This document shows positions 11,594-49,200 of a stretch of DNA of 64,000 bases, piece after piece. Numbering within the stretch: position 1 is the stretch's first letter; each line of letters begins with the position of its first letter. The position numbers were made by a program, and so were the translations under genes. Source of the stretch: Armatimonadota bacterium (lineage in GTDB: Bacteria > Sysuimicrobiota > Sysuimicrobiia > Sysuimicrobiales > Sysuimicrobiaceae); NCBI GenBank assembly GCA_025059775.1, contig JANXCW010000004.1, positions 1-64,000 of the forward strand, in the 5' to 3' direction. The notes under the pieces were generated by a model. It saw only the letters and a list, made by a program, of their open reading frames with translations, was not told the DNA's origin and did not search any database.

Positions 11594-12742
11594 GTGGAGT
11601 TCGCGCTCACGGAGTCCCACCGCATCCTGCAGCAGACCGTGGAGACTTTCGCGGCCCGGGAGATCCGGCCGCATGCGTCCCGGTGGGACGAGGAATCCCA
11701 GTTCCCTCAGGAGCTCGTTTGCCGTCTGGCCTCCCTAGGGTTGCTGGGGATGACGATCCCGGAGCGGTACGGGGGAAGCGGGCTGGATCTCGTAAGCCAG
11801 GCCCTGGTGATCGAGCGGCTGGCGGGGGCCGATGGCAGCCTGGCCCTCACCGTGGCCTCCCACGACGGTCTCGCTGCCTTGCACATCGCGGCTTTCGGGA
11901 GCGAAGCCCACAGGGCCCGCTATCTCCCCCGGCTCGCCTCCGGGCAGGCCCTGGGGGCTTGGTGCCTCACGGAGCCGCATGCGGGCAGCGACGCGGCCGC
12001 GATCTCGACCCGGGCGGAGCGACGGGGAGATGGCTATGTGCTCACGGGCACGAAGGCCTTCGTGACCCAGGGCTCGGTGGCGGGCGTGTACGTGGTGCTG
12101 GCGAAGACGGACTCCCGAGCCGGCCGCCGCGGCATCAGCGCCTTCCTGGTGGAGCGAGGCACTCCGGGCGTGCGGGTGGAAAAGCGGGAACGGAAACTGG
12201 GGCTGCGGGCCTCGGACACCACGGAGGTGGTTTTTGAGGAGGTGGAGGTCCCCGCGGAGAACCGCCTCGGCGGGGAAGGAGAGGGGTACGCGCAGGCCCT
12301 GTGGGTGCTGGAGCGGGACCGGATCGGGATCGGGGCCATGGCCATCGGCCTCGAGCGAGCGGCCCTGGAGGCGAGCCTCACCTACAGCCGGCAGCGCATC
12401 GCCTTCGGCCAGCCCATTGCGCACTTCCAGGCCATCCAGGGGATGCTGGCGGACATGCATACGGAGCTGGAGGCGGGGTGGCTGTTGGTCCTGCGGGCTG
12501 CCTGGCTGGCGGACCAGGGGCTTCCGTTCCGGAGGGAGGCGAGCATGGCGAAGCTGCTTGCCTCCGAAGCGGCCCGTAGGGCCGCGGAGCGTGCCGTACA
12601 GATCCACGGAGGCTACGGCTTCATCCGGGACTATCCCGTGGAGCGATACTATCGGGACGTGAAGCTCTGTGAGATCGGGGAGGGAACGAGCGAGATCCAG
12701 CGCCTCATCATCGCGAAGGAGATCATCGGAGGATCGTCATGA
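11594..12742 (+). CDS. Acyl-CoA dehydrogenase
   Basis: FAD enzyme of 382 residues forming the alpha-beta double bond in an acyl-CoA. Landmarks: [14 protein letters not shown] (FAD/substrate loop), [28 protein letters not shown], and the GEGTSEIQ region that holds the catalytic glutamate of the short/medium-chain branch. Starts with GTG one base after rtcB. With a branched-chain dehydrogenase complex 7 kb upstream, isobutyryl-, 2-methylbutyryl- or isovaleryl-CoA are sensible substrates, but the sequence alone does not settle it. Confidence 0.88.
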
Positions 12743-13713
12743 TCACCACCGTGGTGGGGAGCTACCCTAAGATTCCCGACCCGCCGGCATCCGGCCGGTG
12801 GCGGAGCGCGAAGGAGAAGCTGGAACGGGGGGAGATCTCACCGGAGGAGTTCCTCCGGGTGGAGCGGGAGGTCACCCTGGAGGTGATCCAGGAGCAGGTG
12901 GAGGTGGGGATCGAGCTCATCACCGACGGCCAGATTCGATGGGAGGACTCCCAGGCGTATTTCGTCCGGGGGCTCACGGGGTTCACCCTGAACGGCCTTC
13001 AGCGATGGTTCGATACGAACACGTACTACCGCATCCCCGTGGCGGAAGGCGAAGTGCTCTGGACGGATCCCATCAGCGTGGAGGACTACCGGTTCGCCAA
13101 GGCCCACAGCCCCAGGCCCGTCAAACCCGTGGTCACGGGACCCTATACCCTCGCCCGCTTGAGCCAGAACCGGTACTACGCCACCTTTGAGGACTTCGTC
13201 CTGAACCTGGCCCTGGCCTTAAACCAGGAACTGCGGGCCCTCGATGCGGAGGATCCGCCCCTCATCCAGGTGGACGAGCCCGCCATCCTCCGGTACAAGA
13301 CCGATTTCCCCCTCTTCCGGGAAGCCATGATCACCCTGACGGAAGGGGTACGCTCCCCCCTCGCCCTGTACACCTACTTCGGGGACGTGGCCGGAATCTA
13401 TCCCGAGATCCTGGATCTTCCCTTCGACGCCATCGGCTTCGACTTCGTGGCTGGCCCGCGGAACTGGGAGGTGCTGGAGAAAGCCCCCTTCGAGAAGTGG
13501 CTGGGGTTCGGGATCCTGGATGCGCGCAACACGCGTCTGGAGAGCGTGGAGGAACTCCTGCGGGCGCTGGATCGTGTCTCCCGATACGTCCCCCTGGACC
13601 GGATCTACCTCAATCCGAGCGCGGGGCTTGAGTTCCTGCCCCGACCGGTGGCCCGGGCCAAGCTGCAGCGTCTGGTGGAGGTCAAGCGGGCTGCCCTGGG
13701 AGTCGGCGTATGA
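12739..13713 (+). CDS. MetE-core-like protein lacking the zinc ligands
   Basis: 324 residues, resembling the C-terminal catalytic domain of cobalamin-independent methionine synthase (a TIM barrel that binds zinc and homocysteine). It keeps VGSYPK at the start, TGPYTLA and the VDEPAI motif, but the HxC zinc ligands are Y211 and Y213 (LALYTYFGD) and the distal cysteine of the NPDCG motif is A294 (NPSAG). As it stands it cannot bind zinc like MetE. It overlaps the acyl-CoA dehydrogenase and the next MetE-like gene by 4 bases each, so the pair is made together. It may be a partner subunit or have another function. Confidence 0.75.
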
Positions 13714-14687
13714 TCTCTTCACACCTCCTTCCCACCACCACCGTGGGGTCTTTCCCCAAACCCCCTGATCTCCTGGCGGCTCGGCGGAAGTACCGCCGCG
13801 CCCAGCTGGATCGGGAAGCCCTCCGGGATCTGGAGCGGCGGGCCACCCAGGAGTGGATCCGCCGACAGGAGGCGTTGAGACTGGACATCCTGGTGGACGG
13901 GGAACAGTACCGAGCGGACATGGTGACCTTCTTCGCGGAGGAGCTCGATGGGTTCCGGATCGCGGGGATGGTGCGGGCGTTCGGAAACCGGTACTACCGA
14001 AAGCCCGTGGTAGTCGGTCCCGTGGGGCGGCGGCATCCTCTCGTGGTGGAGTGGTTTCGGTTCGCCCAATCCCTGACCGCGAAGCCGGTAAAGGCGGTTC
14101 TCACGGGCCCCTACACCCTCGCGGAGTGGTCCTTCAACGAGTACTATCCACAGCGGCGGACCCTGGTCCTGGATCTTGCCTGGGCCCTCGGGGAGGAGGC
14201 CCGGGACCTGGTGCGCGCGGGAGCCCGGTACATCCAGATCGATGAACCCGCCATCCACAGTCGGCCCGAGGAGGACTTCGAACTCGCCCGTGAGGCCTTG
14301 ACGAGGATCACGGACGGTCTGGAGGCCTACACCATTGTGCACATCTGCTACGGGGACGTGGCGAGGATCTATCCCGACATGTTGCGGTTGCCCGTGAACC
14401 AGATCGACCTGGCCCTTGCCAACACGCGGTACGCCCTGCTGGAGGTGTTCCGGATGCATCCCTTCACCCGGGATGTGGGGCTCGGCGTGATCGACGTGCT
14501 CCACCCCCGAATCGAGCCCGTGGAGGAGGTGGTGGGAGGGATCCAGCGCGCCCTGAAGGTCTTCGCACCGCATCAGGTGTCCATCTCGCCCGACTGCGGC
14601 CTGCGGACGTGCACCGTGGAGGGGGCCGTGGCGAAGCTGCAGGTCATGGTGGAAGCGGCCCGTATCGTGCGCACCATGGTCCCGTGA
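13710..14687 (+). CDS. MetE-core methionine synthase-like methyltransferase
   Basis: 325 residues, single-domain MetE (C-terminal half only, no folate-binding N-terminal half). It has VGSFPK, TGPYTLAEWS, IDEPAI and keeps two zinc-ligand motifs: H211-I-C213 in HICYGD and C296 in SPDCG. The family's third ligand, a glutamate after the HxC, is not evident (IDLALAN). Such core-MetE proteins transfer methyl groups to homocysteine from a methylated corrinoid or other donor rather than from polyglutamyl methyltetrahydrofolate. Starts in a 4-base overlap with the zinc-less copy. Confidence 0.75.
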   Translation: MISSHLLPTTTVGSFPKPPDLLAARRKYRRAQLDREALRDLERRATQEWIRRQEALRLDILVDGEQYRADMVTFFAEELDGFRIAGMVRAFGNRYYRKPVVVGPVGRRHPLVVEWFRFAQSLTAKPVKAVLTGPYTLAEWSFNEYYPQRRTLVLDLAWALGEEARDLVRAGARYIQIDEPAIHSRPEEDFELAREALTRITDGLEAYTIVHICYGDVARIYPDMLRLPVNQIDLALANTRYALLEVFRMHPFTRDVGLGVIDVLHPRIEPVEEVVGGIQRALKVFAPHQVSISPDCGLRTCTVEGAVAKLQVMVEAARIVRTMVP

Positions 14688-15283
14688 CGGAATCCAGCAG
14701 ATCCCAACGCCGTCGTCGGCGGAGGAATCCGTCCGTCGCTCCGCCTGCAGCATCCCGGCCTCTTGTTCAGGGGGTTGCGTACACGGGCGCGCGTTTCTTC
14801 CGGGTCCCCCCCCGGCAGGTGTACGGGATGGTGGCCCGGCTGGACCGCCTGCCGCGGTGGAGCGGGGTATGGATGTGGGCGGAGGTCGTGGAGCGTAAAT
14901 CCCAGGGGGTCACCGTGCGCCTGCGGGGGTATCTCGCGGGGATTCCCGTGGAATCCGTGATCCGGGCTACCCTGGTCCCGCACACCCGGGTGACCTGGCA
15001 GCAGGCGTACGGGACCTTCCTGGAGTACTCGGGGAGCTTCCAAGTGGAGGCGGCGGAGGAAGGCGCTCTCCTCCGCTACGGGGTAGAACTGAACCCCGGG
15101 ATTCCCTTCCTCTTCCCTGAGGCGGTTCACCAGATCCTGGTCCAGGAGGTGGAGCACACCCTGAACCGCCTGAAGTGGAGCGCGGAGCGGGACATCCTGA
15201 GCGAGGAGCTTCGGCTCCAGCGGGGACGGGGGCAGACTCAGGATCCGGAGGACGGGAGCCCTGAGAACGCGTCCGAGGCGTGA
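14684..15283 (+). CDS. SRPBCC (START-like) domain protein
   Basis: 199 residues. The GTG start lies in a GTGA overlap with the preceding stop. After a basic, arginine-rich N-terminus (about residues 1-25) comes a polyketide-cyclase/START-type fold: [24 protein letters not shown], then strands [19 protein letters not shown] and a long C-terminal helix. These domains bind hydrophobic ligands. The last 20 residues are polar and probably disordered. Ends 1 base before glgB. Specific ligand unknown. Confidence 0.6.
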
Positions 15284-48911: not shown

Positions 48912-49200
48912 CAAAGCCCGCGGGCCGGAAAACCCGGGCCTGCGGTATAGCCTGGCGAGGAAGGGAAGGAGTAGGGACCGCGCACCGCACAGAGAGCCGG
49001 AGGAGGTGGAAGCCGGCCGAGGGCGGGTCCTGAAGCTCGTCCTGGAGCTACCGAGGGGAAAGGCGCTGTCCGAGTACCCTGGTCGTGGGCCCGCGTGAAG
49101 GGTTGGAGAGCCACGGGTTCCGTGGAGCTCTTGTGGAATCCGTGGAACTAAGGTGGTACCGCGGGGAGCTGGCCCGTCCTTAGGCTGGCTCCCCGCTTTT
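48912..49200 (+). promoter_or_regulatory. T-box riboswitch leader of the ilv-leu operon (probable Leu specifier)
   Basis: tRNA-sensing leader between aroF and ilvB. Visible: AGAGAG (48991-48996), the distal GGTGGAAG (49005-49012), and the T-box AACTAAGGTGGTACCGCG (49146-49163) overlapping a terminator. The specifier is read as CTC (49036-49038), leucine, the same codon known for the Bacillus subtilis ilv-leu leader. A GC-rich hairpin (48918-48945) lies ahead of stem I; it has no T run. When leucyl-tRNA is uncharged, the antiterminator should form and the nine-gene operon be transcribed. Confidence 0.9.
49161..49200 (+). terminator. T-box-controlled terminator before ilvB
   Basis: GCGGGGAGC...GCTCCCCGC stem with an inner GCC/GGC extension (49161-49196) followed by TTTT and a T-rich stretch. 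Its 5' arm overlaps the T-box, as expected for the mutually exclusive antiterminator. Confidence 0.85.

Follow-up and report, generated by a model that had tools for sequence, protein, structure and literature searches.

In full-length MetE, both barrels reside in one polypeptide of approximately 750 residues. The zinc ligands of the E. coli enzyme are H641, C643, E665 and C726 (PMC7857596). In the T. maritima enzyme, the corresponding Glu ligand, E642, has been called invariant, and the disabled N barrel carries Phe230, Tyr232, Asp253 and Cys309 at the zinc-ligand places (PMC539065). A two-subunit methionine synthase, reported mostly from archaea, was named split MetE by Price, Deutschbauer and Arkin in 2021 (PMC7857596). 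In P. furiosus, PF1268 and PF1269 are reported to associate with each other in a complex, and the only bacterium named by those authors as having an adjacent pair is Sulfobacillus sp. hq2 (PMC7857596). By their small-subunit rule, the folate component scores higher with Meth_synt_1 than with Meth_synt_2 (PMC7857596); the catalytic subunit is recognized as a single-domain protein of 400 aa or fewer that is PF1269-like at 200 bits or more by phmmer. The core synthases, MesA to MesD and the core-MetE of Dehalococcoides (PMC7857596, PMC7005905), consist of a single zinc barrel of approximately 320 to 340 residues; they work without an N partner, and their methyl donors are corrinoids or other compounds. 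For MesD, MesX (DUF1852) is a further requirement.

The DNA analysed here, referred to as the window, is a stretch of 64,000 nucleotides from a member of the phylum Sysuimicrobiota, also named CSP1-3. The genome, 99% complete, totals 2.35 Mb across 59 contigs, and its nearest named matches are Bacterium HR32, MAGs filed as Armatimonadetes and 'Terrabacteria group bacterium ANGP1'. The window contains two plus-strand ORFs, designated metE-N (P0001/ORF1) and metE-C (P0002/ORF2), whose coordinates are given in Table 1. As an earlier note on this DNA had reported, these are consecutive, overlapping genes for MetE-like proteins of equal length: the overlap is 4 bp, the products are of 324 and 325 aa, and both match Meth_synt_1 (PF08267, cut-off 27 bits) and Meth_synt_2 (PF01717, cut-off 21 bits). 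The scores are 100.4 and 128 bits, respectively, for metE-N, and 40 and 246 bits for metE-C, and the two proteins are 38–39% identical to each other. With the archaeal methionine synthase model PRK04326, metE-C reaches 390.6 bits, just below the cut-off of 406. Because the barrels are two polypeptides, read from ORFs in different frames, the arrangement is not that of full-length MetE and the inter-barrel linker is absent. The position of the metE-C start codon on the metE-N stop codon (ATGA) suggests that the genes are translationally coupled. An acyl-CoA dehydrogenase gene (11594–12742) precedes the pair and a Polyketide_cyc (START-like) gene (14609–15283) follows it, and this order is conserved in the relatives examined. 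The best PDB matches of the AlphaFold model of metE-N are MetE structures, and that of the metE-C model is T. maritima MetE, with a TM score of 0.92–0.93.

Table 1. Coordinates of the metE-N/metE-C pair and of its zinc-site codons in the window.
Feature	Position	Strand	Basis
metE-N	12739–13713	+	PF08267 100 bits, PF01717 128 bits; tree with MetE N domains; model pLDDT 93.6
metE-C	13710–14687	+	PF01717 246 bits; PRK04326 390.6 bits; tree with MetE C domains; model pLDDT 93.5
ATGA overlap, metE-C start on metE-N stop	13710–13713	+	Sequence; −4 overlap in 51/79 pairs
Tyr211-Thr-Tyr213 codons of metE-N, at His/Cys ligand places	13369–13377	+	Alignment
Asp235 codon of metE-N, at Glu ligand place	13441–13443	+	Alignment
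Ala295 codon of metE-N, at last Cys ligand place	13621–13623	+	Alignment
His183 codon of metE-C, candidate replacement ligand or acid	14256–14258	+	44/44 Ala-type, 0/71 Glu-type
His211-Ile-Cys213 codons of metE-C, predicted zinc ligands	14340–14348	+	H, C in 115/115 C subunits covering site
Ala235 codon of metE-C, at fourth-ligand Glu place	14412–14414	+	Ala 44, Glu 71 C subunits
Cys296 codon of metE-C, predicted zinc ligand	14595–14597	+	Alignment

The alignment bears out the earlier note in that the second gene keeps His211, Cys213 and Cys296, and the ligands H, C and C are retained by all 115 C subunits covering the sites. For the first gene, the reported Tyr211 and Tyr213 were likewise found; the reported Ala294 was misnumbered, residue 294 being Ser and the Ala residue 295. 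The place of the Glu ligand (E. coli E665, T. maritima E642) is occupied by Asp235 in metE-N and by Ala235 in metE-C, so that the set His/Cys/Glu/Cys is incomplete in metE-C as well. Of the 112 N subunits aligned, 107 have Asp at this place, as do all six MetE N domains compared, and none of the 112 has the full set. Given the residues of the T. maritima N barrel cited above, the 'stripped' pattern of metE-N is the ordinary pattern of a MetE N barrel. The N subunits also carry the further signatures of that barrel, namely Tyr at the position of Cys620, Asp253, and Arg at the position of His672, and metE-N retains the DEPA and DGQ motifs. For its part, metE-C keeps the predicted homocysteine-binding residues of a split MetE, Ser14, Glu65 and Asp178 (E. 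coli S433, E484 and D599). Met468, Trp539 and the zinc ligands His, Cys and Cys are invariant among the C subunits; full-length MetE shares these C-barrel residues with the pair, as it does the Tyr/Asp pattern of the N barrel.

It is extremely improbable that the first subunit has a catalytic or ligand-binding role of its own, for example through an amino-acid site formed from retained Gln, Asp and Tyr. Of the 112 N subunits, 84 do have Gln at the position of Glu484 and 96 have Asp at that of Asp599, but MetE N domains have the same pattern, and in MetE this Tyr blocks the pocket through a hydrogen bond to the residue that occupies the Asp place (Asn199 in T. maritima; PMC539065).

A tree was constructed from 86 rows, comprising 37 split N subunits, six MetE N domains, 37 split C subunits and six MetE C domains. 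A single branch, with an SH-aLRT of 100, separates the split N subunits and MetE N domains from the split C subunits and MetE C domains; resolution inside the N half is weak. The 325-aa metE-C groups with haloarchaeal and Hadarchaeal C subunits. Distances among the N subunits correlate with those among the C subunits over 36 pairs (r 0.71, with 0 of 5000 permutations as high; r 0.48 when the fast-evolving rows are left out). The tree indicates that metE-N is orthologous to the N-terminal barrel and metE-C to the C-terminal barrel of full-length MetE (T. maritima, E. coli; PMC539065). This grouping and the conserved pairing described below argue that the window's pair is a split MetE, and it is very probable that the two genes encode the subunits of such a split, cobalamin-independent methionine synthase.

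One point against this assignment is that metE-N, at 100 bits with Meth_synt_1 and 128 with Meth_synt_2, fails the published small-subunit rule. The rule is also failed by eight of 10 other N subunits (seven bacterial, and one from a contig labelled Nanoarchaeota), all of which lie beside a C gene, and the same failure was noted for AMET1_0515 by Price et al. (PMC7857596). The tree suggests that the detection rule fails here, not the orthology.

Across a set of 61 genomes (the window's own, a further 42 from its order and 18 belonging to other phyla), homologues of metE-N and metE-C were found to co-occur, almost always adjacent to each other. In two of these (G009 and G051) they are situated on separate contigs. 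When named genomes were scanned independently with metE-C as the sole query, 80 loci were kept; at 77 of them an N gene precedes the C gene on the same contig (2–3 kb away in two cases), and the remainder are contig ends or the unlinked case. The overlap is exactly 4 bp in 51 of 79 pairs, a set that includes two from haloarchaeal plasmids. Hosts of the pair include Omnitrophota, Chloroflexota, Elusimicrobiota, Zixibacteria, Actinomycetota, Limnochordaceae and Hadarchaeota. It is apparent that the loss of zinc ligands in the first gene, and the pairing, are conserved across the order and many bacterial and archaeal phyla, far beyond chance. A comparison between the two species of the genus gave a dN of 0.042 and a dS of 0.447 for metE-N (dN/dS ~0.095), against 0.086 and 0.386 for metE-C (dN/dS ~0.22); both genes are therefore under purifying selection, which is stronger on the zinc-less metE-N.

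The bare fact of two homologous neighbours with the degree of identity given above might be explained by a gene that was duplicated locally not long ago and is now decaying, but that explanation is refuted by the conservation across phyla and the low dN/dS of the zinc-less gene, and no probability is assigned to it. Recent local loss of the zinc ligands is ruled out on the same grounds. The earlier note's view of the first gene as a retained metal-less copy thus stands; lone first-gene orthologues with intact ligands, which the note had named as a refutation, were sought, and none of the 112 N subunits has the full set. The ligand-bearing exception, at locus L035 of genome G026 (His/Cys/Asp/Cys), is not alone, as it also adjoins a zinc copy. 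Of the two interpretations that had been offered for such a copy, the heteromeric enzyme is the one favoured by these comparisons: the zinc-less copy is ancient, has been kept together with its partner, groups with the MetE N barrel and is most likely one subunit. A new reaction finds no such backing, as Tyr/Tyr/Asp is the ordinary N-barrel pattern, the tree agrees and split MetE has been on record since 2021 (PMC7857596).

Family f5 of the same order (L034, L035, L036, L037, L150 and L151) was observed to have a second type, which is strongly diverged and keeps the Glu ligand. The zinc places of the L035 N subunit (1150–2106) hold the set used by MesB, and those of the N subunits in five other f5 genomes hold His or Tyr, then Phe, Asp and Cys.

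In the enzyme proposed here, metE-N would represent the N-terminal barrel of MetE as a free-standing subunit without zinc, and metE-C would be the catalytic barrel, binding zinc and homocysteine. Co-translated through the ATGA overlap, the subunits would pack against each other with their faces opposed, as the barrels of MetE do, and close a cleft in which the methyl group of methyl-tetrahydrofolate would pass directly to the zinc-activated homocysteine thiolate. For the window's pair, we infer complex formation, zinc binding, the use of methyl-THF and enzyme activity from the comparisons presented in this study.

The folate contacts known from T. maritima are partly kept. Among 37 split C subunits, Trp539 is present in all, Arg493 in 33 and Arg496 in 27, and Lys104, a contact from the N barrel, is replaced by Arg in 37 of 37 split N subunits. 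The pterin contact Glu583 and His111 are unconserved in the split enzymes compared and have no equivalents in the window's pair, which differs from full-length MetE in this respect and counts against a split MetE. Taken together, the kept and the lost contacts point to a donor site that would be MetE-like and not identical to that of MetE. The suggestion in the earlier note that the first gene might encode a subunit that binds the methyl donor fits only in part, in that most folate contacts of MetE come from the C barrel (PMC539065).

The absence of Glu583, the pterin-binding Glu of MetE, would also be consistent with a folate-independent core methionine synthase, in which the zinc subunit is methylated via a corrinoid protein and the first gene encodes a docking subunit. 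The single-barrel size, as in MesA–MesD, and the presence of the Wood–Ljungdahl pathway in some members of the phylum (PMC11604079) are in keeping with that explanation, which is nevertheless very improbable. CdhD/CdhE (PF03599), the Wood–Ljungdahl corrinoid protein, was found neither in the window's own genome nor in any genome examined from families f1, f2, f4 and f7, which contain nearly all of the window-type pairs, whereas it is present in four genomes without a pair (G010, G023, G029 and G032); it also occurs in three that have one (G011, G014 and G038). The genome-encoded CoFeSP (AcsC/AcsD, CdhD/CdhE) that marks MesB and MesC is thus lacking, with 0 PF03599 matches in the own genome. 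Moreover, the core enzymes have no N partner, whereas 77 of the 80 loci here do, and in several lineages the pair has a gene for MTHFR as its neighbour. A corrinoid donor through CoFeSP was accordingly rejected for the own genome and those families, and the distribution of CdhD/CdhE favours methyl-THF, which would be the predicted donor of the window's pair.

SAM riboswitches were found at six of the 30 non-window loci scanned, immediately upstream of the N gene in three (L094, L121 and L104); in the others (L124, L126 and L132) the riboswitch precedes a metF-N-C run. A gene for MTHFR adjoins the pair at 12 of the 80 loci, and in relatives such as L139, which is of the same order, a Hcy-methyltransferase/MTHFR gene (with both PF02574 and PF02219 in L139) is situated between the acyl-CoA dehydrogenase gene and the N gene. 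Such neighbours, seen in bacteria other than the window's, speak for an enzyme that makes methionine from methyl-THF. Next to the window's own pair there is neither a riboswitch nor a gene for MTHFR, which counts against the assignment; the own genome does encode an MTHFR, with a DUF5981 tail. A search of that genome found no MetH activation domain, and the only other candidates were a broken homocysteine S-methyltransferase and one further, distant PF01717 protein, so that no other canonical methionine synthase appears to be intact there.

The homocysteine S-methyltransferase (PF02574; G000:C8:97970–98321, L135) is a remnant in which the two ends of the profile lie in different frames, and it may be a broken gene or an assembly error. 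PF02574 matches occur in 40 of 42 relatives, and the match is full-length in the sister species G001. The distant protein (L045 1325–2497, G000:C1) has 390 aa, a single PF01717 domain and an HxC motif, and is presumably of the PRK06520/PRK06233 (YxjG-like) kind. Two other RNA elements were observed: a T-box leader (RF00230, 96.3 bits) at 48949–49184 of the window, and a TPP riboswitch (55.6 bits) at 2468–2572 of L104, just downstream of the split-MetE pair of an actinobacterial MAG.

A further point against the assignment is that metE-C lacks one of the four zinc ligands (A235), and for this reason it is filed as a variant of split MetE. Ala at the Glu-ligand place was found in 44 of the 115 C subunits, namely those of all window-type Sysuimicrobiota and of four Chloroflexi (L094, L124, L126 and L132), and Glu in 71. 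At position 183, five residues after the homocysteine-binding Asp, His is present in all 44 Ala-type and in none of the 71 Glu-type C subunits; 29 further Glu-type sequences from another phylum have Ser there without exception. With columns 183 and 235 removed, the best C tree requires two changes, a single origin not being rejected (p-AU 0.146); in the tree of the partner N subunits, a common clade of the Ala-type lineages is rejected (p-AU 0.0009). The two trees together indicate that the coupled change, from Glu to Ala with gain of His183, likely arose independently in two lineages.

The equivalent of His672, the proposed proton donor of T. maritima MetE, is missing only in the window's genus, where Leu (G000) or Thr (G001) is found; this place is residue 264 of metE-C (14499–14501 in the window; also L005 2472–3443). 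The C subunit of the genus has a longer branch in the tree than its relatives. The lack of this His is a further point against a split MetE, and together with the branch length and the replacement of Glu by Ala it might suggest that metE-C methylates another thiol and that the pair was retained for that purpose. This is very improbable. The homocysteine-binding Ser, Glu and Asp are retained, the own genome has no other intact canonical methionine synthase, and in the four Chloroflexi with the same Ala and His a SAM riboswitch precedes the pair, with metF in between in three. From this last association, the Ala/His variant is probably still a methionine synthase.

His183 may be a zinc ligand, a proton donor or incidental. 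It is conceivable, and put forward here only tentatively, that it takes the zinc from the homocysteine side, or that a three-ligand site is left; the zinc inversion of MetE could then not proceed in the way proposed, and homocysteine activation would be more like that of MetH or BHMT.

The split arrangement was known already, chiefly from archaea, but is found widely in bacteria, and the window's lineage has the Ala235/His183 variant of it. As in the archaeal split MetE (P. furiosus PF1268/PF1269), the genes are adjacent, the N-type without and the C-type with zinc ligands, and the haloarchaeal pairs at L049, L050 and L149 have the same gene order and 4-bp overlap as the window's pair. The latter differs in being bacterial, in an N subunit that scores higher with Meth_synt_2 than with Meth_synt_1, and in a C subunit with His183 and without the Glu zinc ligand; that ligand, Glu642, is also what Ala replaces in the comparison with full-length MetE. 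Split MetE would thus be a methionine synthase common among bacteria, with a small subunit that the published rule fails to detect, and some genomes may therefore have been miscalled as methionine auxotrophs or as users of core-MetE. As the enzyme would consist of two chains, the role of the disabled N barrel could be tested by omitting it, and the covariation of Glu/Ala with Ser/His would offer a direct and cheap test of whether the Glu ligand and zinc inversion matter for MetE chemistry.
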